Part shown: one piece after another, positions 5,824 through 49,239 of the stretch
How the letters are laid out: each line of letters starts with the position of its first letter
Position numbering within the stretch: the stretch's first letter is position 1
Assembly: GCF_014174275.1 (NCBI RefSeq)
Contig: NZ_JABEQK010000001.1
Coordinates: 124,001 to 188,000 of the forward strand
Direction: 5' to 3'
From: Gluconacetobacter takamatsuzukensis
GTDB lineage: Bacteria > Pseudomonadota > Alphaproteobacteria > Acetobacterales > Acetobacteraceae
DNA: 64,000 bases
Notes under the pieces: model-generated
The model's database searches: none
What the model saw: only the letters and a program-made list of their open reading frames with translations
What the model was told of the DNA's origin: nothing
Translations under genes and position numbers: made by a program

Positions 5824-5849
5824 GATCGTCCACCGGCATGGAAGCGGCC

Positions 5850-6506: not shown

Positions 6507-6605
6507 GAGCCTGCCCGTAAATGCGGTCTGGCGGCGATCCGGCGCGCGTTTCCTGCGCGCCGGTGCTCACGGCCACATAGGCCGCTCCACGCCTGTTTCC
6601 ATGCT
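6507..6605 (+). repeat. Degenerate, right-truncated copy of the 165-bp inverted-end element
   Basis: The sequence from AGAGCCTGCCCGTAAATG through GGCGATCCGGCGCGCGTTTC to CGGTGCTCACGGCC closely follows the left half of the element at 21670-21834. The right inverted end is not recognisable. It sits directly after lysE and before the transporter gene. Confidence 0.65.
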
Positions 6606-6680
6606 CTTCGGGCTGGTCAGGCGCGATCATTCTGTGCTCCGATCGCTGCATGATCGTCCTGTGACGGGGAGTGCGCACGG

Positions 6681-32668: not shown

Positions 32669-33270
32669 GGGGACAGGGCCGCATGGATGTCGGCGGCCAT
32701 GGATGCGGGATCGTTCAGTTGGGTCATGCCGTAGCGCGCGCGCATCCGCCCGTCCGGGCCGACCAGCGTCAGGACCGAATTGTGGTTGATGTGGCCGTCG
32801 GTGCCCGTCCAGCCGATTCCCCAGGCGCGGGCGGCCCGGGCCATTTCGGCCGGGCGGCCGGTCAGGCCGGTAGGGGTGGGCTGGAAGTGGGAGAGGAAGG
32901 CATGCAGCACGGCGGGGGTGTCGTGCGTGGGGTCCAGCGTGACGAACAGGACCCCGGTCCGCGCCGCATCCGGGCCCAGGCGGGCGAAGAGCGGTTCCAG
33001 CGCCGCGAGGACGGTCGGGCAGACATCGGGGCAGCGCACATAGCCGAAATAGACCAGCGTTGCCCGTCCATGCAGCGTGGCCGGGTCGAACGCGCGGCCC
33101 AGATCGTCGCGCAAGGCCAGGCCGGGGGCCGGGACCGGCGGGACGGGAGAGCCGAAGCGGCCGAAGTTGCCGCTCCAGCCCGCATAAAGCGCCAGCAGGG
33201 CCAGGATGGCGGCCACCGTGCAGGCGGCGCGCCGCAGCGACTGGCGGACCGGTGGGGCGAGCGCCGTCAC
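32665..33270 (-). CDS. SCO1/SenC/PrrC copper chaperone
   Basis: A 201-residue membrane-anchored thioredoxin-fold protein that delivers copper to the CuA site of oxidase subunit II. An N-terminal signal anchor (about 15-30) precedes the core, with YFGYVRCPDVCPTVLA (Cu-binding C-x3-C), FVTLDPTHDTPAVLHAFL, and the third ligand His in DGHINHNS. Ten bases separate it from the oxidase subunit I stop, and its stop overlaps ctaG. All SCO copper ligands are present. Confidence 0.92.
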   Translation of the reverse strand: MTALAPPVRQSLRRAACTVAAILALLALYAGWSGNFGRFGSPVPPVPAPGLALRDDLGRAFDPATLHGRATLVYFGYVRCPDVCPTVLAALEPLFARLGPDAARTGVLFVTLDPTHDTPAVLHAFLSHFQPTPTGLTGRPAEMARAARAWGIGWTGTDGHINHNSVLTLVGPDGRMRARYGMTQLNDPASMAADIHAALSP

Positions 33271-35026: not shown

Positions 35027-35553
35027 GGCGTGCCTGCCGGATCGACGATGATGCGGGCCACCATGGCATGGTGGAACATGCCGCAATATTCGTTGCAGAG
35101 GATGCGGAACAGTCCGGCATGCCGGAATGTGTATCTGACCGTGCCGACCACGCCCGGCACCGCCGTGAGGTTGACCGGCGTGCCCTGGATTTCGAAACCG
35201 TGCAGCACGTCGGCGCTGGTGACGTAGAAGGTGATCTCGGCGCCTTCGGGCACATGGATCACGTCCGGCGACCAGTGCCAGGCGCGGCCGACTACATATA
35301 CCGCATAGGCGTTAGGGCCGGTGCGTACCACCTTGCCGTCCTGGAACGCGGCTTCGCGCGCCGGGGCCTGCGGGTCGGTCGCGTAGGAATGGGTGCCGGT
35401 CACCAGGCCGTAATCATGGACGACGTAGAACATCGTCCCGATCGTGAGCAGTACCAGCATGACGAGTACGCCGAAGATCCAGAATCGCTCGTGCCGTTCG
35501 GCCGAGGCATGGAAGGCGGCTTCGAAAGGGCTCATGCCCGTATTATTGTCCAT
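35023..35553 (-). CDS. ba3-type cytochrome c oxidase subunit II (CuA)
   Basis: A 176-residue subunit with a single N-terminal transmembrane helix (about 25-45) and a periplasmic cupredoxin domain. CuA ligands are complete: the early His in SADVLHGFEIQG and the cluster CNEYCGMFHHAM, which provides Cys, Cys, His and Met plus the Glu carbonyl. It accepts electrons from cytochrome c and passes them to subunit I. Short size with one helix is typical of ba3 rather than aa3 enzymes. It overlaps subunit I by 4 bases; the small subunit gene is 16 bases upstream. Confidence 0.94.
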   Translation of the reverse strand: MDNNTGMSPFEAAFHASAERHERFWIFGVLVMLVLLTIGTMFYVVHDYGLVTGTHSYATDPQAPAREAAFQDGKVVRTGPNAYAVYVVGRAWHWSPDVIHVPEGAEITFYVTSADVLHGFEIQGTPVNLTAVPGVVGTVRYTFRHAGLFRILCNEYCGMFHHAMVARIIVDPAGTP

Positions 35554-35569: not shown

Positions 35570-35728
35570 TCACGCGCGATGCAGGAAGATCACCGAGACC
35601 AGGATCCAGACCGCCAGCACCGCCACCAGCAGCACGCCGCTGACGACCCAGGTGCCGACGGGCCGGACCTCCATCACGGGTGGGCCGTTGCCCGCGTCCG
35701 TGTCGCCCTGTTCGGTCGGTGTGCTCAT
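35570..35728 (-). CDS. Small single-helix oxidase-associated subunit
   Basis: A 52-residue protein with a polar acidic N-terminus and one transmembrane helix (WVVSGVLLVAVLAVWILVSVIFL). Its place between the cytochrome c gene (ATGA overlap) and subunit II suggests a subunit IIa/CbaD-like accessory polypeptide, as ba3 oxidases carry a single-helix third subunit. Sequence similarity is not decisive at this length. Confidence 0.75.
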   Translation of the reverse strand: MSTPTEQGDTDAGNGPPVMEVRPVGTWVVSGVLLVAVLAVWILVSVIFLHRA

Positions 35729-36435
35729 TTCGTGCCTCCTGCGTTCGGGGCTGGCAGGCTTTGCACGTAGGCCGCCACGGCCTGCATGTCGGCATCGGCC
35801 ATGGCGTGGGTTTCCGTCACCATCATCTTGCCCATCGGGTCGCGATCCTTGCCCTGGTGCCATTGCCGCAGCTGTTCCAGCAGGTAGGGGGCGGATTGTC
35901 CGGCCAGGTGCGGGGCGAAGGCGCCCATGCCTTGGCCCGCCGGGCCGTGGCAGCCGCCGCACGGCATGACGCCGTGGGCCATGTCCCCTTTCTGGAACAC
36001 CTCCTTGCCGCGTGCGCGCAGCGCGTCGCCGGCCGGGTCGTTCTCGGCCGGGGGCGGTTCGGGCAGGGCGGCGTAATAGGCCGCGACATCCTGCATCTGC
36101 CTGGGCGTCAGCATCCGCGCATAGGGGGCCATCCAGCTGTTGCTGCGCTTGTCGGAGGCGAAGAAATCCAGCTGCTGGGCGATGTACGCGGCCGAGAAGC
36201 CCGCCAGGCGGGGGATGCCCACGTCGGGCTGTCCGGCACCGTTCATCAGATGGCAGGCCGAGCAGCCGACATGGCCGGTCAGCACGCCGCTTTCCGCGAT
36301 CGTGCGCCCTGCCGCCGGGTCGGGCGTGTCGGCCGCGTGGGACGGTTGCGCGGCCAGCAGGGTGAGTCCCAAGAGCGTCAGTACGCCAGCCCGTTGCCGG
36401 CCTGGACGGATGATGCTTCCCGCCGCCTGGTGCAT
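35725..36435 (-). CDS. Diheme cytochrome c, probable electron donor of the ba3 oxidase
   Basis: A 236-residue exported cytochrome c4/c-553-like protein. A signal peptide (about 1-35, ending QPSHA-A) is followed by two class I cytochrome domains, each with one heme motif: VGCSACHLMNGAG and MPCGGCHGPAGQG. Distal Met candidates are YARMLTPRQM and GKMM. ATG 36435 is chosen because GGGAGAAAGG lies just upstream and the signal peptide starts there; the frame is open a further 75 bases. First gene of the oxidase operon, divergent from the PQQ dehydrogenase, so it likely carries electrons from periplasmic alcohol oxidation to the oxidase. Confidence 0.93.
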   Translation of the reverse strand: MHQAAGSIIRPGRQRAGVLTLLGLTLLAAQPSHAADTPDPAAGRTIAESGVLTGHVGCSACHLMNGAGQPDVGIPRLAGFSAAYIAQQLDFFASDKRSNSWMAPYARMLTPRQMQDVAAYYAALPEPPPAENDPAGDALRARGKEVFQKGDMAHGVMPCGGCHGPAGQGMGAFAPHLAGQSAPYLLEQLRQWHQGKDRDPMGKMMVTETHAMADADMQAVAAYVQSLPAPNAGGTK

Positions 36436-36624
36436 GCCTTTCTCCCGTTCGGGTTTCTTGCCGATATGATACGCTATAGGCGATTGCCGGGGGGTGGGCA
36501 CATTCCGCAACCCCCGGCATCGCGGTTCGTGTTCTTGCTTATGGTCCCGCTCGCTCTTCGGCTGCGACTTTCCGATGTTGCCGGCGGCCTGTCACGGGGG
36601 CGGTTCCGATCCGGATATCCGACC

Positions 36625-36642
36625 TGTCGCAGAATTGAGACA
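36625..36642. promoter_or_regulatory. Operator copy A, TGTCGCA-type palindrome
   Basis: TGTCGCAGAATTGAGACA: the same 18-bp pattern as copies at 36838 and 48198, with one mismatch in the right arm. It is nearest to the ba3 oxidase operon start. Probable binding site of the AcoR-like regulator encoded at 48250-49239 (inference). Confidence 0.55.
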
Positions 36643-36837
36643 GGAGCGCGCGGCCGGGGCATGGAAATGCGAAATATAAAGACAGGAATACGGGCGCTTT
36701 CATCGTGCCGGCCATAATCTCTGAAACGTGATTATAGTCAATCCGTATCGATGACAGCGCGGGGGAAAGCGCCCCGCGGGATTTTCTGCATCGCACCATG
36801 GGTTTTCGGCCCTGTTTTTCCCGGGTGGCACCGCACT

Positions 36838-36855
36838 TGTCGCAGTTTTGCGACA
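36838..36855. promoter_or_regulatory. Operator copy B, TGTCGCA-type palindrome
   Basis: TGTCGCAGTTTTGCGACA, a perfect palindrome of TGTCGCA and TGCGACA separated by four bases. It lies upstream of the PQQ dehydrogenase. Confidence 0.65.
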
Positions 36856-37134
36856 GTCTGCCCGCACCATGCCTTTTCGACAGCGTGACAGAACCGGTGG
36901 AACCGGCAAATGCTGAGGGGCCTGACACATAAGAACGACAACGTGCAGGTGGAGCATCGTCATGAACACTATTGCCCGGGATGCGTGATGGATCCTGCGC
37001 CCGGATCCGCCGTTATACCGTCCCGCCCCTGCTGGGCGGTATTCCGGCCGATCGGGCGCGAGCGTCATCATTTCCTGGAAGCAGAACCGTTGTTCGGACG
37101 ATCCCTACCGGAAGAGTGTTGCGGGAGATCCAAG

Positions 37135-38886
37135 ATGAAGTTTGCTTACCGTACCAGCGCCCCCCGGCGGCCCCTGCATCGGGCGATGCTGGCCCTGCCG
37201 GTTGCCCTGGCGTGCGCGACCGCGCTGACGGTTGCATCCCCGGTGCGGGCCGACGAGCCGGCTGGCCCCTACCAGCCGGTGACGAGCGAGCGGCTGGGCC
37301 ATGCGGCGCAGGATGATGGCTGGCTGATGTACCGGCACGATTATGCCAGCACGGGCTATTCGGTCCTGGAGGGGGTCAATGCGGGCAATGTCGCCCAGCT
37401 GAAGCCCGTCTGGGATTACGAGACGGGCTCGAAGAGCGGGCATGAGGCGCCGCCGATCGTCAATGGCGACTACATGTTCATCACCACCCCGAAGAACGGG
37501 TTGCTGGCCTTTCAGGCCAGTACGGGAAAGCTGCTGTGGAAATACCAGCGCGACCTGTCCGACGTGGGGCTGAAGACGATCTGCTGCGACGTGGTCAATC
37601 GCGGAGTCGCGCTGTACGGCACCAATGTCTACATGGCCACGCTGGACAATCACGTGCTGGCGCTGGATGCCACGACCGGCAAGGTGGTGTGGGACCAGGC
37701 GCTGGAAGCGCCGGACCTGGGCTATGCGATGACGCTGGCGCCGCTGGTGGTCAAGGGCCATGTCATTGTCGGCGTTTCGGGCGGCGAATATGGAGGGCGG
37801 GGCTTTATCGCATCGCTGGACGCCAAGACCGGCAAGCAGATCTGGCGGCAATCGACGATTCCGGCACCGGGGGAACCGGGTGGCGAGACCTGGCCCAAGG
37901 GTGCCTACAAGACCGGTGGCGGCGCCACCTGGCTGACCGGCAGCTACGACCCGCAGACCGATTCGCTGATCTGGGGCGTGGGTAATCCGGGGCCGTGGCT
38001 GGCGGTGCTGCGGCCGGGCGACAACCTGTATACCGACAGCGTGATCGCGCTGAATCCCGCGACCGGCAAGATCAAGTGGCATTACCAGTACACGCCGAAC
38101 GATACGTGGGATTACGACGGCACCAACGAGCCGGTCCTGACCGACCTGACCTATGAGGGCAAGGCGTACAAGGCGCTGGTCAGCGCCAGCCGCAACGGCT
38201 GGTTCTATGCGGTCGACCGTACGAACGGAAAGCTGATCTATGCCGAAAAATTCGCGCACGCGACATCGGTTTCCGGATTCAAGGACGGCAGGCCCGTCAC
38301 GGACCCCGCCATGCGGCCGGACGTGGACAAGGAGGTCTTTACCTGCCCCAGCTTCCTGGGCGGCAAGAACTGGTGGCCGATCGCCGTCGATCCGCAGACC
38401 CATTTCGCCTATGTGCCGACATTGCATACCTGCATGAAGATGAAGGGGGCCTCGGTCTCGTACAAGGCGGGCCTGCCGTTCCTGGGCGAGACCTTTACCG
38501 TCATGCGCGATCCGGAGCATCCGGATGAGTGGGGTTCGGTCCAGGCCATCGACCTGAATTCCGGCAAGCAGGCCTGGTCGTTCAAATCCGCCCTGCCGTG
38601 GAACGGCGGCATGCTGGCGACGGCGGGCGGGCTGGTCTTCTCGGGCAGCGCCGACGGATACCTGTATGCCTTCGATGCAAAAACGGGTTCCGTGCTGTGG
38701 AAGAGTCCGAAAATGTCGTCGGGCGTGCTGGGTGTGCCCAGCACCTGGAAGGTCGGCGACAAGCAGTATGTCGGCGTCTATGCCGGGTGGGGCGGCGGCG
38801 TGCCGATCTGGGGTGGCGACATGGCGAAGGACGCGCGTGTCCGCTCCATTCCGCTGGGTGGCCATCTGTATGTCTTCGCGCTGTAA
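37135..38886 (+). CDS. PQQ-dependent alcohol dehydrogenase with lanthanide-type metal site
   Basis: A 583-residue periplasmic quinoprotein of the methanol/ethanol dehydrogenase family, oxidising a primary alcohol to the aldehyde (or further). Signal peptide about 1-42 (ending PVRA-D), then an eight-bladed propeller with tryptophan-docking repeats (TGKLLWKYQ, TGKVVWDQ, TGKQIWRQ). The vicinal disulfide Cys150-Cys151 is present (TICCDVV). Metal and catalytic residues can be placed at Glu218 (GGEYGGRG), Asn284 (GVGNPGPW), Asp326 and an additional Asp328 in WDYDGTNE. The extra Asp two residues after the catalytic Asp is the hallmark of lanthanide-dependent XoxF/PedH-type enzymes; calcium enzymes have a small residue there. 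No heme domain is fused. Followed 10 bases later by its probable cytochrome partner. Confidence 0.93.
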   Translation: MKFAYRTSAPRRPLHRAMLALPVALACATALTVASPVRADEPAGPYQPVTSERLGHAAQDDGWLMYRHDYASTGYSVLEGVNAGNVAQLKPVWDYETGSKSGHEAPPIVNGDYMFITTPKNGLLAFQASTGKLLWKYQRDLSDVGLKTICCDVVNRGVALYGTNVYMATLDNHVLALDATTGKVVWDQALEAPDLGYAMTLAPLVVKGHVIVGVSGGEYGGRGFIASLDAKTGKQIWRQSTIPAPGEPGGETWPKGAYKTGGGATWLTGSYDPQTDSLIWGVGNPGPWLAVLRPGDNLYTDSVIALNPATGKIKWHYQYTPNDTWDYDGTNEPVLTDLTYEGKAYKALVSASRNGWFYAVDRTNGKLIYAEKFAHATSVSGFKDGRPVTDPAMRPDVDKEVFTCPSFLGGKNWWPIAVDPQTHFAYVPTLHTCMKMKGASVSYKAGLPFLGETFTVMRDPEHPDEWGSVQAIDLNSGKQAWSFKSALPWNGGMLATAGGLVFSGSADGYLYAFDAKTGSVLWKSPKMSSGVLGVPSTWKVGDKQYVGVYAGWGGGVPIWGGDMAKDARVRSIPLGGHLYVFAL

Positions 38887-38896
38887 GGAGGATTGC

Positions 38897-40087
38897 ATGC
38901 GCCTGAACATTACCCGCCTGTCGCGCCGCGCCCTGGTCTGCGCCGTCGCGGCCGGCGCCGTGCTTGCCGCCCGGCCGGCCGGGGCCACGGTCTCGGTCTG
39001 CATCGATTCCTCCAACCCGGCCCATGCGATGGATCGCCGGGTCGTCCAGGCGGTTGCCCGCCAGCAGGGTACCGATGCCGCGATCTATACGTTCGACGGC
39101 AGCGGCGCGGGGGACGACGATGGATTCGACGTCAAGAAGTTCGGCACGCTCGCGGCCTCGCGCTGCGCGCTGGTGCTGGGCTTTCCCGTGGACGCCACGC
39201 ATGGGGCGGTGCCCGAGGGGATGCGGGCGACGGCCCCCTATGCGCGGATGGGATTCGTGCTGGTGACGCCCCGTAGCCATGATGCGGAAACCCTGGCGGC
39301 CCTGCCGCACGGGACCGACGTGGCCGTGACCTACCTGACGGCGCCGAACCTGTATTTCGTGAAGCATCCCAACGTCCAGGCCGATATCTACCCGACCGAT
39401 GCGCAGACCATTGCGAGCGTGGTTCACCATACGGACCGGGCGGCGATGGTCTGGCGTGCCAGTGCGGTTGCCTATCTGCCCGGTGGGGAAAAGGCGCGCG
39501 ACTATTGCATCCATGCGCTGAACGAGCCCCATGCGGCCTGGGACGTGGTGGCGCTGTATGGTCCGCACGGCGCGGCGGCGGCGGCTTCGTTCCAGAAGAG
39601 CGTCGAGGCGCTGCGGCGGTCCGGCCAGTTGGCGGCCCTGCTGAGCCCCTATGCCATGTCGCCGGCCAATCCGGTCGTTCTGGCTGCGGCGGAGGCGCCG
39701 GCGGCCGCCCCTGCGGCTGCACCGGCCGCTCCGGCTGCCGGTGGGGAGAAGCCCGCGCTGTTTACGGCGGCGCAGGCCGATGCGGGCAAGAAGGCCTATG
39801 CCGACAATTGCGCGCAATGCCATGGCGACAATCTGGAGGGGATGGCCGGGCCGGCGCTGAAGGGCAAGAATTTCGCCTCGCCCAAGGCGAATTTCCATGT
39901 CGGCGATGTCTTTACCATCGTGTCGCAGAACATGCCCGCGACCCAGCCGGCCAGCCTGCCGCATGACGTGTATGTGAACATCATGGCCTTCCTGCTCCAG
40001 CAGAACGGGATGCCCGCCGGTTCGGCCGAACTGACCTTCGATGGGGCCAAGGCCTCGACCGTGCCGCTGGTCTATAGCGGCGAATAG
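38897..40087 (+). CDS. Fused MxaJ/XoxJ-like periplasmic binding protein and cytochrome c
   Basis: A 396-residue exported protein with two parts. After a signal peptide (about 1-31) residues 32-260 resemble the amino-acid-binding-type periplasmic proteins MxaJ/XoxJ that accompany PQQ methanol dehydrogenases (VCIDSSNPAH, SRCALVLGFPVD, DVAVTYLTAPNLYF, VWRASAVAYLP). An Ala/Pro-rich linker (about 270-292) leads to a class I cytochrome c domain with heme motif Cys305-x2-Cys308-His309 (NCAQCHGD) and a later Met candidate in QNMPATQP. In methylotrophs XoxJ and the cytochrome XoxG are separate genes. The fusion implies a dedicated electron acceptor physically tied to the binding protein. ATG 38897 has an ideal AAGGAGG site. 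Confidence 0.87.
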   Translation: MRLNITRLSRRALVCAVAAGAVLAARPAGATVSVCIDSSNPAHAMDRRVVQAVARQQGTDAAIYTFDGSGAGDDDGFDVKKFGTLAASRCALVLGFPVDATHGAVPEGMRATAPYARMGFVLVTPRSHDAETLAALPHGTDVAVTYLTAPNLYFVKHPNVQADIYPTDAQTIASVVHHTDRAAMVWRASAVAYLPGGEKARDYCIHALNEPHAAWDVVALYGPHGAAAAASFQKSVEALRRSGQLAALLSPYAMSPANPVVLAAAEAPAAAPAAAPAAPAAGGEKPALFTAAQADAGKKAYADNCAQCHGDNLEGMAGPALKGKNFASPKANFHVGDVFTIVSQNMPATQPASLPHDVYVNIMAFLLQQNGMPAGSAELTFDGAKASTVPLVYSGE

Positions 40088-40095
40088 GCCGGGGA

Positions 40096-40129
40096 GGCCG
40101 GTCCGGCCGGGTTTCCGGCCGGACCGGCC
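40096..40129 (+). terminator. Strong hairpin after the PQQ dehydrogenase operon
   Basis: GGCCGGTCCGGCCGG (40096-40110), loop GTTT, CCGGCCGGACCGGCC (40115-40129): a perfect 15-bp stem. No T-run follows. Confidence 0.7.
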
Positions 40130-40260
40130 CACGGCGCGGGAGCGGCCATTGGCCACGCCCCGACATTGCCCGGGCCTGTGGCGGCACGGTGTAATTGGTC
40201 GTTCGCGCCATAGAGGCGAACGCGTTATAATAAAAAATAAGAAACAACGGAGTTTGTCAG

Positions 40261-41868
40261 ATGTCAGCAAGACATTGGGCGCAGGTGGGTTTGACGGCCG
40301 TTCTGGCTGCTGGTGGTGTGTCCATGCTGTCGGCCCGTTGTGCCCGGGCTGATGATTACAGTGATCTTCTGGATATCCTGCGGGCCAAGGGGGCGCTGAC
40401 GCAGGTCGAATATTCGACCCTGCTGGCCAAGCATCGGCATCATGCGGCGGAGCCGGCATCGGCCGAGGGGCCGCGACGGGGACGGGGCGCGGCCGGGCGG
40501 CATGCCGGGGTTGCGACGGCCGAGGCCGCTTCGGACGGTGCGGTGATGCCGGCGGTGGTGGCCGCCCAGCGCGCGGCCGACAGCGCGGCGGCCAGCGCCC
40601 GTGCCGCCGAGGCCTCGATGCTGGCGGCGCGCAGCACGATCGACAGCCCCAGCGTGGTGCGGGTCGACCCCTATGTTTCGGGCAAGGGGCTGACTTTCAA
40701 GGCCGGGCAGATCGATATCAATTTCTCCGGGTTCATCAACGGGTTCTACAGCTACAACTCGCCTGGGCGCGGGCAGGCGGTGGCGGGCGGGCTGTCGAGC
40801 GGGGGCAGCGGGTTCGATTCGTCGGCGGTGCGCAACGGCCTGCTGCCGGCAGGCTTCATCCTCAAACTGTCCACGACGCAGTCGGGGATCGACATGTCGG
40901 CCGTGCTGGGCATGTATCCCGGCCTTAACAATGCCAATCCGGGGGCCTTCAACGCCAATTCCGGCGGCAGCCCGGTCGGGCTGGGCACCGCGGGCATCGA
41001 TCTTCGTCAGGTTTACCTGACGGCGGGGACGAAGACCTTCGGCACCGTCAAGCTGGGCCGCGACCTGGCGCTGTTCGGGTCGGACGCGATCCTGAACGAT
41101 GCGACGCTGTTGAGTGTGGGCTCGACGGGCAGCAATACCGCGCCGGCCAATACGTCGCTGGGCCGTATCGGCCTGGGGTATGTCTATGCCGACTGGATTC
41201 CGCAGATTTCCTATGCCTCGCCGGTCGTCAAGGGCTTCCAGGGATCGGTTGGTGTCTTCCAGCCGCTGGATGCGTTCAATTTCGCCGGGGGGGGCCTGTC
41301 GGCGCAGTCGACGCAGCACAGTTCGCCGATGGTGCAGGGCAAGATCACCTACGATTTCAAGATCGGCGAACTGAGCACGCGGATCTGGTCCAGCTTCCTG
41401 ATCCAGCATCAGCAGGGCCTGACGAGCACGCTGCTGTCGGAAGAGGAGCGTCGGGGTGCCATGGCCGAGGCCGGCGAAATCGGTGCCAAGCTGACCTATG
41501 GCGCGGCGCAGGCCGTGGTCTATTACTATCGCGGCAGCGGGCTTGGCACGACGGGCCTGTTCTTCGACGGTGTTGCCGCGAACGGGCACAAGCGTGATTC
41601 GGAAGGCTATTACGTGCAGGGGGCCTATAACTTCACCAAGCGCTTCAAGCTGGTGGGCAGTTATGGCGTCAGCAATCTCTACCTGGCGTCGGGCGATACG
41701 GCGGTCGGGCTGGTGCGCCGCAATGAATCGGAAGTCGGGGCGGCTTACTACGACCTGACGGACTGGTTGAAGCTGGTGGCCGAATTCGCCCATACCGATG
41801 CAGCCGCGCATAACGGCAACGCGGCGCGGGACAACACGGTCTCGGGCGGCGCGATCCTGTTCTTCTGA
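40261..41868 (+). CDS. Outer-membrane porin with N-terminal SHOCT-like helix
   Basis: A 535-residue exported beta-barrel protein. A signal peptide (about 1-30, ending ARA-D) is followed by DLLDILRAKGALTQVEYSTLLAKH, a short SHOCT-like motif often seen at the start of porins in this group, then an Ala-rich spacer (about 60-130) and a barrel beginning near VRVDPYVSGKGLTFKAGQIDINFSGFINGFYSY. Alternating aromatic strands continue to the C-terminal aromatic residue (GGAILFF), typical of barrel proteins. It probably admits alcohols, sugars or acids to the periplasm. Its promoter region has an inverted repeat TTCGC/GCGAA near 40200. Located within the alcohol oxidation cluster. Confidence 0.82.
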   Translation: MSARHWAQVGLTAVLAAGGVSMLSARCARADDYSDLLDILRAKGALTQVEYSTLLAKHRHHAAEPASAEGPRRGRGAAGRHAGVATAEAASDGAVMPAVVAAQRAADSAAASARAAEASMLAARSTIDSPSVVRVDPYVSGKGLTFKAGQIDINFSGFINGFYSYNSPGRGQAVAGGLSSGGSGFDSSAVRNGLLPAGFILKLSTTQSGIDMSAVLGMYPGLNNANPGAFNANSGGSPVGLGTAGIDLRQVYLTAGTKTFGTVKLGRDLALFGSDAILNDATLLSVGSTGSNTAPANTSLGRIGLGYVYADWIPQISYASPVVKGFQGSVGVFQPLDAFNFAGGGLSAQSTQHSSPMVQGKITYDFKIGELSTRIWSSFLIQHQQGLTSTLLSEEERRGAMAEAGEIGAKLTYGAAQAVVYYYRGSGLGTTGLFFDGVAANGHKRDSEGYYVQGAYNFTKRFKLVGSYGVSNLYLASGDTAVGLVRRNESEVGAAYYDLTDWLKLVAEFAHTDAAAHNGNAARDNTVSGGAILFF

Positions 41869-41942
41869 TGCGTCTTTTCATCCGGGGGTGCCTCTCTGCC
41901 CCCGGATGGTTCCGACTGGCCGCGCTCCAGACAACGGCCCAA

Positions 41943-41991
41943 ACGAATAAAAGTCTTTTTGCTTCTTTTTCTTCAGAAAAAGAAGAATCCA
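41943..41991. repeat. T/A-rich hairpin repeat, copy 2
   Basis: ACGAATAAAAGTC followed by hairpin CTTCTTTTTCT (41962-41972), loop TC, AGAAAAAGAAG (41975-41985), nearly identical to 16092-16135. It lies between the convergent porin and response-regulator genes and probably serves as a bidirectional terminator. Confidence 0.75.
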
Positions 41992-42000
41992 CGGCGAGCG

Positions 42001-42669
42001 TCAGAGTATCTCCGGACGCAGTGCCCGTGTCCCGGCATTCTCCCGCCCATCGAAGGTCCCGCCCGCCTGCGTGGCGATGGCCAGCCGGATCAGGTCGGCG
42101 GTGCGGGCCACGCCCAGCTTGGTCTTGATCATGCCCGCCGTGTTGGCGACCGTCTTGTAGCTGACGCCCAGCGTTGCCGCGATGTCCGACAGGCTGCGGC
42201 CCTCGCCCAGAAAGCGCATGATATCCAGGTCGCGTGCCGTCAGGCGGCCGAAATCGCGGCCCAGTATGTCGTGATGTTCGCTGAGCATGGAGGCGATTCC
42301 GGCTTCGACATAGCATTGTCCGTTCATGGCCTGCCGGATGGCGTCCAGCAGGTCGTCGGGCCCAATTGTCTTGGACACATAGCCGGTTGCCCCGGCATCG
42401 AGCGCCCGGCGTGCGTAGATCGGGTCGGCATGCATGCTCAGTACCAGCACGCGCAGGCCGGCGTCGCGCAGGCGGGGCAGCAGCCACAGGCCGCCGGCGC
42501 CGGGCAGGCCCAGGTCGAGCACCACCAGGTCCGGCCGTGCGTGCAGGGCCAGGTCGAGGGCGGTCGGGGTGTCCGCGGCTTCGAGGATCGTGGCGTCCAG
42601 CGCCGTTGCCAGCAATTGCCCGAGGCCGGCGCGCACCACCGTATGGTCGTCTACCAGAAGGATGTTCAT
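42001..42669 (-). CDS. LuxR/NarL-type response regulator
   Basis: A 222-residue regulator. The receiver domain (about 1-118) carries acidic residues at 7-8, phosphoacceptor Asp52 (LVVLDLGLPG), and SKTIGPDDL with the conserved Lys. The LuxR-type HTH (about 150-210) reads LTARDLDIMRFLGEGRSLSDIAATLGVSYKTVANTAGMIKTKLG. It is coupled by an ATGA overlap to the upstream histidine kinase. Similar kinase-regulator pairs control PQQ alcohol dehydrogenases in other bacteria (for example the Exa/Erb and FlhSR/MxcQE types), so control of the nearby dehydrogenase operon is plausible. Confidence 0.92.
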   Translation of the reverse strand: MNILLVDDHTVVRAGLGQLLATALDATILEAADTPTALDLALHARPDLVVLDLGLPGAGGLWLLPRLRDAGLRVLVLSMHADPIYARRALDAGATGYVSKTIGPDDLLDAIRQAMNGQCYVEAGIASMLSEHHDILGRDFGRLTARDLDIMRFLGEGRSLSDIAATLGVSYKTVANTAGMIKTKLGVARTADLIRLAIATQAGGTFDGRENAGTRALRPEIL

Positions 42670-44090
42670 GCGTCGTGCGCCTCCGGCGCCCTAGTGCGGT
42701 TGAGGGGGGATGGCGGAGCCGGATGGGCGTCCGGGTCGGGCAGGCTGGCGGTGACGGTCCAGCCCCGGTCGCGCGTGATGTCCAGGGATCCGCCCAGGTC
42801 GGACAGACGGCGGCGCATGCCGGCAAGGCCGAAGCCCGGCGCGGGCGTGCCCGTCGTGCCGTCGTCATGGACCGACAGGGCGATGCGGCCGCCGGCGCGC
42901 GTGGCCCGCAGCGTGATGTGCGAGGGGTGTCCGTGGCGGGCGGCGTTGCAGACGGCTTCCTGTGCCACGTGAAACAAGGCGTCGCGCGTTGCGTCGTCCA
43001 GCGCGCCGAGCGCGGGATCGCAGGAAAGCGTGAAGACGATGTGTGGTGCGACACTGTTCCAGAACAGGACAATGCCCTCCAGGGCTTCGGGGAGCGCGCG
43101 CCCGGGGGTGCCGTGCAGCCGTTGCAGGATGGCGCGCAGGGTGCGCTGGATGGACCCGGTGGCGTCCTGTATGGCGCGGACCTGGGCCGGGATGGCGTCG
43201 TGGCGGCCCTCGGCGGCGGAGCGGGCGAGGGTAGCCGCGAAGGTTGTGATGCCGAACAGCAGGGGGCCGACCTCGTCATGCAGGTCGCGCGCGATGTCGG
43301 CGCGTTCTTCTTCGGCCACGCGGGCGATCTGGTCCTGGAGGTGGCGGTTCTGCGCGGTCGCGGCGCGCAGGGCGCGGGCCATGCGATTGAAGGATGCGGC
43401 CTGCCCTGCGATGTCGGCCGGGCCGTGTTCGGGCAGGTCCGCGATTTCTTCGCCCGCCGCGATCCGGGCATAGCCGTCGGAGAGGGTGGCCAGCGGGCGC
43501 AGGCCGCGTATCACGATGACGCAGCAGGAGCCGGCGACCAGCAGGACCAGCAGCGCGATGGTGGCGATCTGTACCCGGAGTTCGCCCCAGCGTTCCGCTG
43601 CCTCGTTGGTCGCATCGGCTTGCAGGCGCAGCCGCCACCCCGTGGGCAGGCCGGCGGGGGCGAGTGTCAGCGGAGCCATGGCCGGTGCGGTGGCGCGCAG
43701 GAACCAGGCGGGCGGGCGGGGGCCGGTGGCCAGGCGGGACTGGCGGAGCACCCGGCCGGCCGGGTCGACGATCCGGGCCTGGATATGACGGTTGCCGTCG
43801 AAACTGTCGCACATCTCCGCCAGCCAGGCGGCGGCGGAGGCGGCGGGGGGTGGCGGTGTCGCGGCGATGTCGGCGCGGGCATTGGCCAGGGCGGCGGCCA
43901 GTTCCACCCGGATCGAGCGGCCTGCCTGCCACGCTGCGAGGCCGGAGCCGGCGGCCAGGCCGATGAGTGCCGCCACCGCGAGCGCCAGCAGCAGGCGCTC
44001 CAGCAGCCGCAGGCGCGCGCCGGGGGGGCGGAACGGGAAGAATGAAGTGTCGGCCCAATGATTTTTATGACGTTCGGGAAAATGTCCCAT
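42666..44090 (-). CDS. Sensor histidine kinase (NarX/HisKA_3 type)
   Basis: A 474-residue membrane kinase. A first transmembrane helix (about 28-50) is followed by a periplasmic sensor region (about 50-155), a second helix (IATIALLVLLVAGSCCVIVI), HAMP (about 175-225), then HisKA_3 with EEERADIARDLHDEVGPLLFG carrying the phosphorylated His, and a HATPase domain (QEAVCNAARHGHPSHI, DDGTTG, GFGLAGMRRRLSDLGGS). ATG 44090 is chosen because AGGGAAG sits before it; the frame stays open to a TTG further upstream. It lies divergent from the TonB receptor. The periplasmic sensor could detect an alcohol, aldehyde or metal; none is proven. Confidence 0.9.
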   Translation of the reverse strand: MGHFPERHKNHWADTSFFPFRPPGARLRLLERLLLALAVAALIGLAAGSGLAAWQAGRSIRVELAAALANARADIAATPPPPAASAAAWLAEMCDSFDGNRHIQARIVDPAGRVLRQSRLATGPRPPAWFLRATAPAMAPLTLAPAGLPTGWRLRLQADATNEAAERWGELRVQIATIALLVLLVAGSCCVIVIRGLRPLATLSDGYARIAAGEEIADLPEHGPADIAGQAASFNRMARALRAATAQNRHLQDQIARVAEEERADIARDLHDEVGPLLFGITTFAATLARSAAEGRHDAIPAQVRAIQDATGSIQRTLRAILQRLHGTPGRALPEALEGIVLFWNSVAPHIVFTLSCDPALGALDDATRDALFHVAQEAVCNAARHGHPSHITLRATRAGGRIALSVHDDGTTGTPAPGFGLAGMRRRLSDLGGSLDITRDRGWTVTASLPDPDAHPAPPSPLNRTRAPEAHDA

Positions 44091-44158
44091 CGACTTCCCT
44101 AGTCCCGTTCGATCTGATGAACCGCGTGGCATGCCAATCAAATGAGAAGAATAAACGC

Positions 44159-46510
44159 ATGTTTGAAAAGATGATCGGGCGGCGGGCCATGTATCTGGCC
44201 TCCGCCGCGCTCTGCCTTCTGCCCGTCCGCGCGGTGTCGGCGCAGACGGTGCCGGTATCGGGCGGTGGGTCGGCTGGCGTGCAGTCGGAGGACATCACCG
44301 TTATTGGAACCTCGCCACTGCCCGGTTCGGGCATCGACCGCGACCGTCTTCCGGCGGCGACCGCCATCGTGACCGCGCATGACCTGCAACTGACCGGCAC
44401 GGCCGACCTGCTGCATGCGCTGGATAGCCGGCTGGCGGGTGTCAGCCTCAATTCGCCTGCCGGGAATCCCTATCAGCCCACCATCGTCATGAACGGCTTC
44501 CAGGCGTCGCCGTTGCAGGGCACGTCGCAGGGTGTCGCGGTCTATCTGGATGGTGTCCGCTTCAACCAGGCTTTCGGCGACACGGTGAACTGGGACCTGA
44601 TCCCGGACCTGGCGATCGAGCGGGTGGCGGTGGAGGGGTCGAACCCCGTCTTTGGTCTGAACGCGCTGGGCGGGTCGCTGAATGCGCGGATGAAGAACGC
44701 GTTCAATACCGTGGCCGGCGGCGAGGCGGACCTGTCCGGCGGGTCGTTCGGGCGCATCGTGGCGCAGGGCGATTATGCGGCGCGGCGGGGCAATTGGGGC
44801 TTTTATGTCGCTGGCCGGGAGGTGCACGAGGATGGGTGGCGGGATCTGCAAAGCACCGACATCCAGAGCCTGTATGCCGATCTGGGCTGGAAGGGGCAGG
44901 CGACGGAGGTGCATGGCAGCCTGGACCTGGCCAATTCGGTGCTGAATGGGCCGGGGACGTCGCCGGTCGAGCTTCTGCGGGCGGACCCGCGGGCGCAGTT
45001 TACCGCGCCCAACCAGATGGCGAACAAATTCATCCAGTTTGCCGTGAACGGCCGGCACAGCTTTACCGACACGCTGTCGGTACAGGGGCAGGTTCATTAC
45101 GATTATTTCCAGCAGCGGGTGATCAACGGCAACGCGCCCAACGATGCGCCGTGCGACGACGGATCGGGCCTGATGTGCTCCGACGATGGCGACCCTTCGA
45201 CCACGCGGGGCGGGGCGACGATTCCCGATTTCCTGAATGGCGGCCCGTATTCGGAGTTGGATCTGCAAACGACCAATACCAACGGCTATGGCGTATCCAT
45301 GCAGGAGACCGAAACCCGTTCGGTGTTCGGCCTGCGCAATCATGAGGTCGCGGGCGTCAGTTTCGACGGTGCGCAGACGATGTTCACCGGTGAGGCCCTG
45401 CTGGGCGGCCTGACGCCGGTGACGCGTGCCTATTACGGGCCCGGCTATGTGATCGACGAACCGGGCGAGACCGTGCCGGTGCGGGTGCGGGTGAACGATG
45501 CCTATGTCGGCGTGTTCGCGACCGACACGATCGATCTGACGGACCGCCTCTCGCTGACCGGATCGATGCGCTACAATTTCGCGCAGATCAATCTCGCCGA
45601 CCAGAATGGCGGGGATTTGAGCGGCCGCCATGCCTATTCGGCAATCAATCCGGGGGGTGGGATCAGCTATCGCCTGACGCGCTGGGCCACGATCTATGGC
45701 GGCTATGCCGAGGCGAACCGTGCGCCGACCCCGGCCGAACTGTCCTGCGCCGGACCGCAGAACGCGTGCAGCCTGGCCAATTTCTTTGTCGGCGACCCGG
45801 AGCTGAAGCAGGTGAGGGCCCATACGTTCGAGGCCGGGCTGCGCGGCGGCTTTGCCATCGGCATCGCCGGCCGCCTGAGCTACGATCTGGGCCTGTTTCG
45901 TACCGATGCCGACGATGACATCGTCTTTATCAACAGCGAGACGCTGAACCGTGCGTTCTTCGCCAATATCGGCGCTACCCGCCGGCAGGGCGGCAAGGTG
46001 CATCTGGCCTGGCAGGCGGATGGCTGGTCGGCCTGGCTGAACTATACCCATACCGATGCGACCTATCGCAGCGGTTTCGTCGAGGATGCGGGCAGCAATC
46101 CTGCCGGCGACGATGACGGCGACATCACCGTGCGCCGGGGCAACCGCCTGCCGGGCATTCCGCTGGACAAGCTGACCGGCGGGGTGGATGTGCGCATCAC
46201 GCCCATCTGGAGTGTCGGCGGCGATTTCGATTTGCAGGGCGGGCAGTATCTCTATGGCGACGAAGCCAATCTGACGCCGCGCCTGCCGGGATTCTTCGTG
46301 CTGAACCTCCATACTTCCGTCCAGGTGACGCATTCCCTGCAACTGTTCGGCAGCATCTCGAATGTGACCGACCGGCATTATTATACCTATGGCACGTTCT
46401 CGCCGACCAATTCGGTCTATCTGGTGCAGGCGCCGGGGGCGAGCAATCCGCGCAGCTACAGCCCCGCCGCGCCGATCGGCGGCTTTGGAGGTGTGCGCGT
46501 GACGTTCTGA
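44159..46510 (+). CDS. TonB-dependent outer-membrane receptor
   Basis: A 783-residue receptor. A signal peptide (ending VSA-Q near residue 27) is followed by a TonB-box-like EDITVIG, the plug domain (DLLHALDSRLAGVSLN, GVAVYLDGVRFNQAFGDTVNWDLIP, NALGGSLNARMKNAF) and a 22-strand barrel ending in a terminal Phe. Acidic clusters such as DDGSGLMCSDDGDPS and DADDDIVF occur in predicted loops. Substrates of this class are siderophores, vitamin B12, sugars or other chelates. Its location beside a predicted lanthanide-dependent dehydrogenase and a kinase-regulator pair makes a lanthanide-chelate (LutH-like) role a testable guess; sequence alone does not prove it. Confidence 0.9.
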   Translation: MFEKMIGRRAMYLASAALCLLPVRAVSAQTVPVSGGGSAGVQSEDITVIGTSPLPGSGIDRDRLPAATAIVTAHDLQLTGTADLLHALDSRLAGVSLNSPAGNPYQPTIVMNGFQASPLQGTSQGVAVYLDGVRFNQAFGDTVNWDLIPDLAIERVAVEGSNPVFGLNALGGSLNARMKNAFNTVAGGEADLSGGSFGRIVAQGDYAARRGNWGFYVAGREVHEDGWRDLQSTDIQSLYADLGWKGQATEVHGSLDLANSVLNGPGTSPVELLRADPRAQFTAPNQMANKFIQFAVNGRHSFTDTLSVQGQVHYDYFQQRVINGNAPNDAPCDDGSGLMCSDDGDPSTTRGGATIPDFLNGGPYSELDLQTTNTNGYGVSMQETETRSVFGLRNHEVAGVSFDGAQTMFTGEALLGGLTPVTRAYYGPGYVIDEPGETVPVRVRVNDAYVGVFATDTIDLTDRLSLTGSMRYNFAQINLADQNGGDLSGRHAYSAINPGGGISYRLTRWATIYGGYAEANRAPTPAELSCAGPQNACSLANFFVGDPELKQVRAHTFEAGLRGGFAIGIAGRLSYDLGLFRTDADDDIVFINSETLNRAFFANIGATRRQGGKVHLAWQADGWSAWLNYTHTDATYRSGFVEDAGSNPAGDDDGDITVRRGNRLPGIPLDKLTGGVDVRITPIWSVGGDFDLQGGQYLYGDEANLTPRLPGFFVLNLHTSVQVTHSLQLFGSISNVTDRHYYTYGTFSPTNSVYLVQAPGASNPRSYSPAAPIGGFGGVRVTF

Positions 46511-46527
46511 ACCTTTGTCGTTGCGGT

Positions 46528-46549
46528 CCGGGTGCCTGTCGGCACCCGG
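46528..46549. terminator. Bidirectional hairpin between TonB receptor and aldehyde dehydrogenase
   Basis: CCGGGTGCC (46528-46536), loop TGTC, GGCACCCGG (46541-46549): perfect 9-bp stem, followed by ATTGTCGTG. Confidence 0.65.
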
Positions 46550-46569
46550 ATTGTCGTGTGGAGTGTGGG

Positions 46570-48096
46570 TCAGAAGAAGCCAAGTTTCTTCGGGGCGTAG
46601 CTGACCAGCAGGTTCTTGGTCTGCTGGTAATGGTCGAGCATCATCCGGTGGTTTTCACGCCCGATGCCGGACTGCTTGTAGCCGCCGAAGGCAGCGTGGG
46701 CCGGGTAGGCGTGGTAACAGTTCGTCCACACCCGGCCGGCCTTGATGGCGCGCCCGACGCGATAGGCGCGGGTGCCGTCGCGGGTCCAGATGCCCGCACC
46801 CAGGCCGAACAGCGTGTCGTTGGCCAGTTTCACCGCCTCGGCATCGTCGCGGAAGGTGGTGACGGAGACGACGGGGCCGAAGATTTCCTCCTGGAAGATC
46901 CGCATCCGGTTGTCGCCCTTGAAGACGGTGGGCTGGATGTAGCAGCCGTTCGACAGGCTGCCGCCCACATCGGCCCGGCCGCCGCCGATGAGCAGTTTCG
47001 CCCCTTCCTGCCGCCCGATATCGATATAAGACAGGATCTTGTTCATCTGGTCGACAGAGGCCTGGGCGCCGACCATCGTGTTGAGATCGAGCGGGTTGCC
47101 CTGTTTGATCGCCGCGACCCGGCGCAGCGCGCGTTCCATGAACCGGTCGTAGATGGATTCGTGGATCAGGGCGCGCGACGGGCAGGTGCAGACCTCGCCC
47201 TGGTTGAAGGCGAACAGGACGAAGCCTTCGATCGCCTTGTCGAGAAAATCGTCGTCCTCGGCGGCAATGTCGGAAAAGAAGACGTTGGGGGACTTGCCGC
47301 CCAGTTCCAGCGTCGCGGGGATGAGGTTGTCGGCCGCCGCGTGGGCGATCATCTTGCCTGTCGGCGTCGAGCCGGTGAAGGCGATCTTGGCGATGCGGCT
47401 GTTGGAGGCCAGCGCCGTACCGGCCTCGCGCCCGAAGCCGTTGACGATGTTCAGCACGCCGGCCGGCAGGATGTCGGCGATCAGTTCTGCCAGGACCAGG
47501 ATCGAGGCCGGCGTCTGCTCGGCCGGCTTCATCACCACGCAATTGCCCGCGGCCAGGGCCGGCGCGAGTTTCCAGGCGGCCATCAACAGCGGGAAGTTCC
47601 AGGGGATGATCTGGCCGACCACGCCCAGCGGTTCGTGGAAATGGTAGGCGACGGTGTCGTGGTCGATTTCCGACAGGGCGCCTTCCTGCGCGCGGATGCA
47701 GGAGGCGAAATAGCGGAAATGATCGACGCACAAGGGAAGGTCGGCGTTGAGCGTTTCGCGCAGGGGCTTGCCGTTGTCCCAGCTTTCGGCGCGGGCCAGC
47801 AGTTCCAGATTCTCCTCGATCCGGTCGGCGATGCGGTTGAGCAGCAGCGCGCGCTGGGCCGCGCTGGTTTCGCCCCAGGCATCGCGCGCGGCGTGGGCGG
47901 CGTCGAGCGCGCGCTCCACATCCTCGGCCCTGGAGCGCGCCACCTTGCACAGGATGCGCCCGTCGACCGGGGACGGGTCGTCGAAATATTCCCCGGCGAA
48001 GGGGGGTACCCATTTTCCGCCGATGAAATTGTCGTACTGCGCCTTGAACGGTGACGACATGTCGATTCGATGGCTTTCCAGCGAGTCCATGGTCAT
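46570..48096 (-). CDS. NAD(P)-dependent aldehyde dehydrogenase (AcoD/ExaC type)
   Basis: A 508-residue class I aldehyde dehydrogenase, oxidising acetaldehyde or another small aldehyde to the acid in the cytoplasm. It has [24 protein letters not shown], the nucleotide-binding FTGSTPTG, the catalytic base in LELGGKSPN and the nucleophile in [12 protein letters not shown], followed by [12 protein letters not shown]. The sequence is of the group regulated by AcoR-type proteins. ATG 48096 follows AAGGAGA. The promoter region contains the TGTCGCA palindrome, and an AcoR-like regulator is encoded just upstream on the same strand. It would detoxify the aldehyde made by the periplasmic dehydrogenase. 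Confidence 0.94.
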
Positions 48097-48197
48097 TCTC
48101 CTTCTTGGTCGCCGCGGACGGAGCGCGGTCAACGTTTGGAAGAGTGGCGATGGGGACTGGATTTGTCAGCCGGTTGCGGGCGGTATGGCCACCGATC

Positions 48198-48215
48198 TGT
48201 CGCAGTTCCGCGACA
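48198..48215. promoter_or_regulatory. Operator copy C, TGTCGCA-type palindrome
   Basis: TGTCGCAGTTCCGCGACA lies between the AcoR-like gene and the aldehyde dehydrogenase, about 100 bases upstream of the latter. It matches the copies at 36625 and 36838. Confidence 0.65.
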
Positions 48216-48249: not shown

Positions 48250-49239
48250 CTAGTGGACGTCGTGGCGCTTCAGGCGGCGATGCAGCGTGGCGCGGCTGAC
48301 GCCCAGTTCGCGCGCGGCCGCCGAGATGTTTCCGTTGCAGCGTTTCAGCACGCGTTGCAGGGCGGCGTGGGCGGCGCGGGCGGGATCTTCGTGGCCGGTA
48401 TCGGACAGCAGGTCGGGGAGCGTCATGGGCTTGCCCGCGCGCAGGCCGAACAGGGTGCGGGCGGCCTTGTTGGTGCCGACGATCACCTCGTTCTCGTCCA
48501 CGGCCAGCAGGGCCTGTGCCTCGTTGCCCAGCGAGATGATGCGGTGGTCGGCGAAGGCTTCGCCGAACAGGCGGGTTTCGATCCGCCGGGCGGCGTCCTC
48601 GACCACCAGGGACAGGAAGGAGAGTGTCGCCGTGTCGCAATCGTTGCGGCAGGAGGAAATGTCGATCCCGCCGATCGGGCTGCCCGACGGGTCGTGGATC
48701 GGTGCCATGGTGCAGCTGAGCCCGGCATTGCGGGAAAAGAAATGCTGGTCGCGATGGATCGTCAGCACCCGGTCTTCGGCCAGGCAGGTGCCGATGCCGT
48801 TGGTGCCCTCGTGGGCTTCGTCCCATATGGCGCCCAGGTTCAGGCCCCAGGCGCTGAAGATTTCCTCGTCTCCGGCCATGCATCGCTGCTCCAGCGCGAC
48901 GCCGCGCGCGTCGCTGAGCAGCATGCAGAAGCCGCCGCGCCGGACCGCCGAGGCCAGCCGGTCCAGAACGGGCTGGGCCGCGTGGAGCAGCAGGGCGCTG
49001 CGCTCGCGGGCCTCGCGGTAGGCCTGGGCGTCGAGACGGCGTGGGGGTTCGTCATGGTTCGGGCTCAGGCCGTAATGACGCAGCGAACGGGACCACGAGG
49101 CCGCGAGCGCCGAGCGGCCGGAGGCGGATTCGTCTCGCAGCATGCTGTAGACGCGATCCGCGTGGTGAATGCTCACTGGAGCGTGATGATTATCGAGTGA
49201 TCTGGCTTTCGTCACTCTTGGCCTCTGCATTTCAGGCAT
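48250..49239 (-). CDS. AcoR-like GAF-Fis regulator lacking the AAA+ domain
   Basis: A 329-residue regulator resembling AcoR (acetoin catabolism activator). The N-terminus has the AcoR-type SWSRSLRHYGLSP helix, then a GAF sensor domain (about 60-205) with WDEAHEGTNGIGTCLAE and PIHDPSGSPIGGIDIS, a short PAS-like linker, and a C-terminal Fis-type HTH, RCNGNISAAARELGVSRATLHRRLKRH. No Walker A/B or GAFTGA sequence exists between them, so it cannot activate sigma-54 in the usual way and must act as a conventional activator or repressor. It probably binds the TGTCGCA palindromes. Start at 49239 uncertain; ATG at 49230 is possible. Confidence 0.85.
   Translation of the reverse strand: MPEMQRPRVTKARSLDNHHAPVSIHHADRVYSMLRDESASGRSALAASWSRSLRHYGLSPNHDEPPRRLDAQAYREARERSALLLHAAQPVLDRLASAVRRGGFCMLLSDARGVALEQRCMAGDEEIFSAWGLNLGAIWDEAHEGTNGIGTCLAEDRVLTIHRDQHFFSRNAGLSCTMAPIHDPSGSPIGGIDISSCRNDCDTATLSFLSLVVEDAARRIETRLFGEAFADHRIISLGNEAQALLAVDENEVIVGTNKAARTLFGLRAGKPMTLPDLLSDTGHEDPARAAHAALQRVLKRCNGNISAAARELGVSRATLHRRLKRHDVH

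Follow-up and report, generated by a model that had tools for sequence, protein, structure and literature searches.

AcoR-type regulators combine a GAF domain with a Fis-type helix-turn-helix (HTH), and an AAA+ domain defines those that act as sigma-54 activators. In the EatR-PA4022-eat-eutBC system of Pseudomonas aeruginosa, as far as the available part of the source describes it, EatR senses acetaldehyde and controls the adjoining gene for an ExaC-like acetaldehyde dehydrogenase; it is an AAA+ regulator that works at a -24/-12 promoter as a sigma-54 enhancer-binding protein (PMC5821096). The ped/exa genes of Pseudomonas (PedH, PedS2-PedR2) comprise a lanthanide-type pyrroloquinoline quinone (PQQ) alcohol dehydrogenase, a two-component pair and a porin-like protein; cbb3 oxidase genes are reported to be up under methanol stress, with no shared cluster or operator noted in the accessible portion of that article (PMC12997753). 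In acetic acid bacteria, according to excerpts of a review, oxidative fermentation relies mainly on quinol oxidases and bd-type oxidases (PMC9171043). Here we analysed 64,000 nt (the window) of the 3.78 Mb genome of Gluconacetobacter takamatsuzukensis, in which one palindrome precedes a cytochrome c/ba3-type oxidase operon, a PQQ alcohol dehydrogenase gene and an ExaC-type aldehyde dehydrogenase gene, the last of which adjoins the gene for a GAF/Fis-HTH regulator, P0001.

As in the EatR system, the regulator gene lies next to an ExaC-type gene. Unlike what the available part of the EatR source describes, P0001 lacks the AAA+ domain, a conserved sigma-54 promoter is missing, and the targets include an alcohol dehydrogenase and a terminal oxidase. 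We read the three sites as operators of one small regulon that would be run by P0001 with sigma-70 in response to an aldehyde, and assign this reading a probability of about 0.77. In the literature searched, mostly without subscription papers, we found no description of this operator, of AAA-less AcoR regulators or of a terminal oxidase belonging to an alcohol regulon.

Three oriented promoters

Exact matches to TGTCGCAGNNNNGMGACA are located at 36625-36642, 36838-36855 and 48198-48215, and there is no further mismatch-free match in the window. The sites at 36625 and 36838 are spaced 213 bp apart within a 699-bp gap between the divergent genes for cytochrome c (ATG 36435, minus strand) and alcohol dehydrogenase (ATG 37135, plus strand), and the site at 48198 lies between the ATG of the aldehyde dehydrogenase gene (48096 or 48090) and the stop codon of the regulator gene (48250). 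The exact matches confirm the palindrome where a preliminary description of this DNA had placed it, and the gene coordinates agree with its view that all three sites are intergenic.

Each palindrome is part of a longer element, in which a gap of 29-30 bp is followed by TGACA as -35, 17 bp and a weak -10. The side on which the -35 lies reveals the target of each site. The site at 36625..36642 (minus strand, reading TGTCTCAATTCTGCGACA; 17 of 18 positions invariant in seven genomes) faces the cytochrome c/ba3-oxidase operon, with GTGACA as -35 at a conserved offset (36590..36595, minus; 6/6 invariant in the same genomes) and GAAAGT as predicted -10, 17 bp past the -35 (36567..36572, minus; 7/8 invariant over 36566-36573). 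The site at 36838..36855 (plus; 18/18 invariant) faces the PQQ alcohol dehydrogenase gene, with GTGACA at 36885..36890 (plus; 6/6 invariant) and a predicted -10, AAATGC, at 36908..36913 (plus), where 36907-36914 is invariant in 8/8 positions. The site at 48198..48215 (minus), found at the same place in genus mates and many other Alphaproteobacteria, faces the ExaC-type aldehyde dehydrogenase gene; CTGACA at 48164..48169 (minus) has the conserved offset, and CACTCT at 48141..48146 (minus) is predicted as -10 from the position of a -10-like block. The direction of the -35 elements is thus in line with the earlier statement that the sites lie upstream of oxidase, PQQ alcohol dehydrogenase and aldehyde dehydrogenase genes.

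This element turned out to be highly specific. The loose bipartite pattern TGTC-N10-GACA-N29/30-TGACA had three matches in the whole genome, all of them the window sites, while the control had none; the same oriented promoter element therefore precedes all three operons and occurs only at these three places genome-wide. With a bipartite matrix built from 31 thinned promoters, all from outside Gluconacetobacter, the three sites score 49.7, 46.1 and 39.5. The next scores in the 155 kb of the own genome covered by the scan come from the same palindromes read in reverse (27.3 and 20.9), followed by 16.3, and five random 64-kb sequences peaked at 3.1 on one strand.

The palindrome alone is less selective. 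Exact TGTCGC-N6-G(C/A)GACA occurs at six places in the genome versus about 0.9 expected (P ~3e-4; simple composition model, assumed GC 64-68 %). With up to one mismatch, 49 + 47 matches compare with 39 + 42 for a reversed-pattern control, and with up to two mismatches 33 + 38 compare with 40 + 38, so that the palindrome alone is informative only if exact. The mismatch-tolerant form, which shows little or no excess over the control, was dropped as a means to find regulon members. A genome scan, the check named in the preliminary description, hence revealed no unrelated sites for the bipartite form, whereas the palindrome with mismatches stayed at about control level. Of three one-mismatch places read in their context, those in rpoC (L021) and in a short reading frame that precedes a TonB receptor gene (L022) were taken as chance. 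The third, CGTCGCAAAAATGCGACA, is found at L020 5163-5180 before a further aldehyde dehydrogenase gene (5445-6944), with no bipartite score above 10.

Conservation of the three sites follows the regulator. Seven of 12 Gluconacetobacter genomes have both regulator and oxidase, and exactly three bipartite sites; two have the regulator without the oxidase, and one site; three have neither, and no site. We aligned the oxidase/alcohol dehydrogenase gap from the seven genomes with regulator and oxidase. All or nearly all positions of the two palindromes, the two -35 and the two -10 elements are invariant, as compared to flanks and gaps of which about half is invariant (85/171, 104/196 and 64/111 positions; palindrome-to--35 gaps 18/29 and 14/29). 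Past the -10 of the alcohol dehydrogenase promoter, CCTGACACAT is identical in the seven genomes. The predicted leader of this gene (36914-37134, about 215 nt) contains a short open frame starting with ATG at 36962, with nine codons including the stop.

The arrangement also occurs outside the genus. In two genomes of another genus (G299 and G276) the oxidase operon with its cytochrome c gene is divergent from the alcohol dehydrogenase gene, in the same cluster as in the window: past the alcohol dehydrogenase gene follow genes for a cytochrome-c-domain protein, a porin-like protein, a response regulator, a kinase and a TonB receptor, and the regulator gene adjoins. An exact bipartite site faces the oxidase, and a weaker site, CGTCGCAGATTTGCGACA, with GTGACA (G276) or GTGACT (G299) as -35, faces the alcohol dehydrogenase gene. 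No site scored near the regulator genes of these genomes in the matrix scan (L274, L275). The regulators of both genomes share 63-64 % identity with P0001, and in a regulator tree that of G276 groups with the Gluconacetobacter regulators (support 100/100). Of 43 loci given, 34 proteins passed the filter for this tree, none of them with AAA+, so that this tree cannot date the loss of the AAA+ domain.

A tighter bipartite form had 33 matches in 19 of 299 genomes drawn by order, with none for the control among the matches listed. By neighbouring gene, nine belong to the oxidase, seven to the alcohol dehydrogenase and 15 to the aldehyde dehydrogenase; two of these 15 are weaker assignments, one beside the regulator with the aldehyde dehydrogenase unread (G329), the other with the enzyme recognised only by an antisense frame (G316). 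One further match (G107; L268 4568) precedes the gene for an AdhP-type zinc alcohol dehydrogenase (NF006940, 365.2 versus 344 bits), and one is unexplained. In another genome (G043) a second palindrome, TGTCGCAACCCTGAGACA (L080 16241), which differs in one base, lies before a second PQQ dehydrogenase gene.

The regulator and the sigma-70-like promoters

P0001 (329 aa; 48250..49239, minus strand) has a GAF domain (PF01590, E 1.1e-8), a PAS-like region below the Pfam cut-off and a Fis-type HTH (HTH_8, PF02954, E 3.8e-12). It shares GAF and Fis-type HTH with AcoR, and a paralog in the same genome adjoins acoABC with the same palindrome. The AAA+ sigma-54 interaction domain (PF00158), in contrast, was not found by Pfam in P0001 or its three paralogs, which were scanned together with the short regulator at L156, and was found in all four long relatives scanned. 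The AcoR-like regulator reported beside the third site does adjoin it and has GAF and Fis-HTH, yet without an AAA+ domain it is not a canonical AcoR. A search of the genome with the regulator gave four strong matches, all of them without AAA+, and one weak match restricted to the HTH part. Among the best 80 of 591 confirmed loci the closest named relative is from Gluconacetobacter dulcium (94 % identical). Strain LMG 1728 of that species has regulator, operator and aldehyde dehydrogenase gene together (L155). The known structure that best matches the AlphaFold2 model of P0001 (mean pLDDT 84.3) is the DhaR sensor part (DhaR(N), 4lry; E 7.5e-11, TM 0.52 on the query), and DhaR is also the single NCBIfam match at E 1e-10, at 76.4 bits far below the cut-off of 551. 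P0001 thus resembles DhaR of Escherichia coli in the fold of the sensor part, and differs in the missing AAA+ domain and in its targets.

The unit of short regulator, operator and aldehyde dehydrogenase gene extends over many Alphaproteobacteria. The sets of loci that follow (30 family loci, 80 named loci, 89 palindromes, 83 aldehyde dehydrogenase loci) overlap and contain related strains, many of them Mesorhizobium and Bradyrhizobium. An exact palindrome with a spacer of 6 was found in 17 of 30 regulator loci of the family, versus three sites at 12 other spacers combined. For the best 80 of 591 loci, from named genomes of mostly Rhizobiales and other Alphaproteobacteria, these numbers are 47 versus two, and nearly all of the palindromes lie between the regulator stop and the aldehyde dehydrogenase gene. 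Regulators at these 80 loci count as short because the match covers GAF through HTH within 891-999 bases, too few to accommodate an AAA+ domain as well. The tight palindrome is present in 15 of 249 family genomes (control pattern: two genomes), and a regulator match with E <=1e-30 was obtained for 13 of these 15 versus 34 of the 234 others (Fisher P 6.7e-9), matches that include some long open frames.

To what kind of promoter the operator belongs can be judged from its distance to the conserved elements. We pooled 89 unique palindromes, exact or one-base variants, from all loci collected. In 58 of them TGACA starts 30 (17 sites) or 31 (41 sites) bases past the palindrome on one side; other offsets reach three at most. 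In 35 thinned rows aligned on TGACA, a second block, xAxxCT(T), follows 22-28 bases on. TGACA and xAxxCT(T) appear to be a -35/-10 pair with a 17-bp spacer, and the promoters look like sigma-70 promoters. The positions of the elements put the centre of the palindrome at about -73 relative to the predicted start, which we take to be the location of a class-I type activator site.

Short regulators and regulators with AAA+ were compared at 91 and four loci, respectively, where the aldehyde dehydrogenase gene passed the filter in 83 of the 91 and in all four. At 75 of the 83 short-regulator loci the palindrome or a one-base variant (TGTCKC, GAGACA) lies upstream, and at 58 the bipartite form; a sigma-54 -24/-12 promoter was found at none of the 83 (up to one mismatch, within 260 bp upstream). 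The four AAA+ loci (L141, L142, L143 and L154, beside aldehyde or alcohol dehydrogenase genes in four other family genomes) all have TGGCAC-N5-TTGCW within 260 bp upstream of the aldehyde dehydrogenase gene (up to one mismatch) and no palindrome. No other observation points as strongly as this contrast to the use of another sigma factor by the short branch. A candidate sigma-54 promoter at the alcohol dehydrogenase gene of the window (TGGCACCGCACTTGTC, 36826) was rejected, as it has two mismatches and is not conserved in six genus mates. We read P0001 as an AAA-less AcoR derivative that would activate sigma-70 promoters from about -73.

Enzymes and neighbouring genes

The ExaC-type acetaldehyde dehydrogenase (46570..48096, minus strand) matches NF050026 with 930.5 bits versus the equivalog cut-off of 900. 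The PQQ alcohol dehydrogenase (37135..38886, plus; TIGR03075, 601 bits) has 6zcw as its nearest solved structure. Its WDYDG signature aligns to WDFDG in 6zcw, WDYDG in 4mae and WDFSG in 1flg; as in 6zcw and 4mae, and unlike 1flg, an Asp is placed two residues past the catalytic Asp, which we take to indicate the lanthanide-dependent type (PedH/ExaF/XoxF). Judged by these residues the enzyme appears to be a lanthanide-type PQQ alcohol dehydrogenase. The following gene (38894..40087, plus) encodes a 397-aa protein with a C-terminal cytochrome c domain (Pfam Cytochrome_CBB3); it follows the alcohol dehydrogenase gene in several genera, and its product is likely the electron acceptor partner of the enzyme. 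A porin-like protein (40261..41868, plus), named by appearance, has no Pfam match and is a conserved neighbour in the cluster.

On the minus strand the oxidase operon begins with a two-domain cytochrome c (35725..36435; two stretches matching Pfam Cytochrom_C). Subunit II (35023..35553; Pfam COX2, PF00116) carries the CuA-type motif CNEYCGMFHHAM, read from the translation. Subunit I (33281..35026) is of the ba3 type, matching 1ehk over 27-581 (E 1.6e-153), and is followed by an SCO1/SenC copper-delivery protein (32665..33270; PF02630) and a CtaG-like assembly protein (31940..32668; PF09678). The CuA-type motif in subunit II of this ba3-type enzyme marks it as a cytochrome c oxidase. While subunit I is homologous to that of 1ehk, its gene is placed here behind an alcohol-type operator and accompanied by those for the SCO and CtaG-like proteins. 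The gene content suggests a path of electrons from the alcohol dehydrogenase to cytochrome c and the ba3 oxidase.

A histidine kinase/LuxR-type pair and a TonB receptor are encoded at 42001-46510, beside the alcohol dehydrogenase gene (37135-38886). TonB receptors that are 44-45 % identical are also found near the alcohol dehydrogenase in L145 and L153. Alcohol dehydrogenase, two-component pair and TonB receptor may serve lanthanide uptake and sensing; apart from the receptor, such genes are likewise combined in the Pseudomonas ped/exa system as far as its description was available (PMC12997753).

Alternative explanations and a model for the proposed regulon

The proposal of the preliminary description that oxidase, PQQ alcohol dehydrogenase and aldehyde dehydrogenase genes form one regulon linked with the adjacent regulator gains support from the genome-wide specificity, and further from presence and absence in the 12 genomes, the footprint, the second genus and the regulator-operator-aldehyde dehydrogenase unit across Alphaproteobacteria. 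Sharing, direction, conservation and genome-wide specificity of the bipartite promoters and their co-occurrence with the regulator can be read directly from the DNA, and the three promoters very probably form one regulon. That P0001 itself binds them is probable, and activation through sigma-70 appears likely, somewhat less so than binding.

Several observations weigh against this reading. The exact palindrome is not present in 13 of the 30 family regulator loci, and at the 83 short-regulator loci the palindrome is missing in eight and the bipartite form in 25. One half of the oxidase site is imperfect and reads GAGACA on the plus strand. The unexplained bipartite match lies inside a coding stretch of a genome without the regulator (G098). 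A third genus (G037) has kept the divergent oxidase/alcohol dehydrogenase pair without the palindrome (up to one mismatch) and without a close relative of P0001, the best match being an acoR-like paralog with 36 % identity; the enzymes can therefore be run in another way. The AAA+ loci used for comparison come from only two genera, three of the four from one, and related genomes are not independent samples. Finally, we infer binding, activation rather than repression, the use of sigma-70, the ligand and the electron path from sequence. The oxidase/alcohol dehydrogenase gap of G037 was also considered as a regulated promoter and rejected, since it holds one site with two core mismatches and no matrix match.

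Other AcoR-type paralogs (C3, C7 and C6) might bind the sites, so that alcohol, acetoin and sugar-type PQQ genes would belong to one overlapping network. We regard this as unlikely, and as the alternative that survives best. The three exact palindromes outside the window lie between an acoR-like gene, whose start was inferred, and acoABC (L017 7351; AcoC matches NF011457, 484.9 versus 307 bits), before an acetoin reductase gene (L018 7109; TIGR02415, 358.5 versus 304.35 bits) and before the gene for a membrane PQQ dehydrogenase, downstream of which a regulator paralog is encoded (L019 7571). Together with the presence of three paralogous regulators, whose recognition helices read much like that of P0001, they mean that another paralog could bind, which also counts against P0001. 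However, none of the three has TGACA at the conserved offset, and their bipartite matrix scores do not exceed 16.3. Moreover, P0001 tracks the sites over the 12 genomes, in part of which the paralogs were traced, and one genome (G042) has an acoR-like paralog but no bipartite site. The palindrome alone also marks these three acetoin and PQQ genes, possibly targets of paralogous regulators in an overlapping network. The fourth short AcoR-type paralog (C6; L040 7198-12311) adjoins genes for an aldehyde dehydrogenase and for a PQQ alcohol dehydrogenase that is extended at its C-terminus; the 16 kb around this paralog contain no TGTC-N10-GACA.

A slightly smaller chance is given to P0001 being a repressor that is relieved by aldehyde. 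GAF-type ligand domains occur in repressors too, and IclR-family proteins are among the weaker fold-search matches of P0001. However, a long and fixed distance separates the operator from the -35 downstream of it, and the -10 elements match poorly, as is expected of an activated promoter.

It is very improbable that both sites of the divergent gap serve the alcohol dehydrogenase and that the oxidase operon is a mere neighbour. The two sites are indeed only 213 bp apart, and the oxidase also occurs in genomes that have no close relative of P0001, but the -35 and -10 of the site at 36625, which hardly vary in seven genomes, lie towards the oxidase, and in the second genus the oxidase-facing site is the stronger one. 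Equally improbable is control of alcohol dehydrogenase and oxidase by the histidine kinase/LuxR-type response regulator (42001-44117) with the palindrome as its site. This pair is a conserved part of the cluster and might take such a role, which speaks against P0001, and PedS2-PedR2 of Pseudomonas controls PQQ dehydrogenases according to the part of PMC12997753 available. Yet the palindrome follows the GAF/Fis regulator into 17-kb loci that, among the reference genes, hold only regulator and aldehyde dehydrogenase, and one genome (G178) has a response regulator beside the alcohol dehydrogenase and no such palindrome.

Regulation by P0001 could proceed as follows. The GAF domain would sense, probably, acetaldehyde or a related short aldehyde produced by the periplasmic dehydrogenase. 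As a signal, acetaldehyde or a related aldehyde has about even chances; it is suggested by the neighbouring aldehyde dehydrogenase gene and by analogy to EatR, the AAA+ regulator of an ExaC-like gene for which the available part of the source describes acetaldehyde sensing (PMC5821096). A dimer of P0001 would bind TGTCKC-N6-GCGACA, the centre of which lies some 73 bp before the predicted start, and bring RNA polymerase of the ordinary sigma-70 type to a weak promoter (STGACA, 17 bp, xAxxxT); lacking AAA+, P0001 would not be able to open a sigma-54 promoter. As a result, electrons would pass from the lanthanide-type PQQ alcohol dehydrogenase via cytochrome c and the CuA ba3-type oxidase to O2, while the ExaC-type enzyme would clear aldehyde in the cytoplasm.

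If this holds true, alcohol induces its own terminal oxidase, and acetic acid bacteria would have a separate respiratory branch for alcohol via cytochrome c instead of quinol oxidases. For the large group of short AcoR-type regulators the bipartite element offers a testable operator-promoter code. A switch of sigma factor, in which a widespread, aldehyde-sensing alphaproteobacterial branch without AAA+ came to act in class-I manner on sigma-70 promoters and recruited a private respiratory chain in two acetic acid genera, is in our view as plausible as its opposite. With the long relatives keeping sigma-54, the family would then represent a natural experiment of regulators moving from sigma-54 to sigma-70 promoters.

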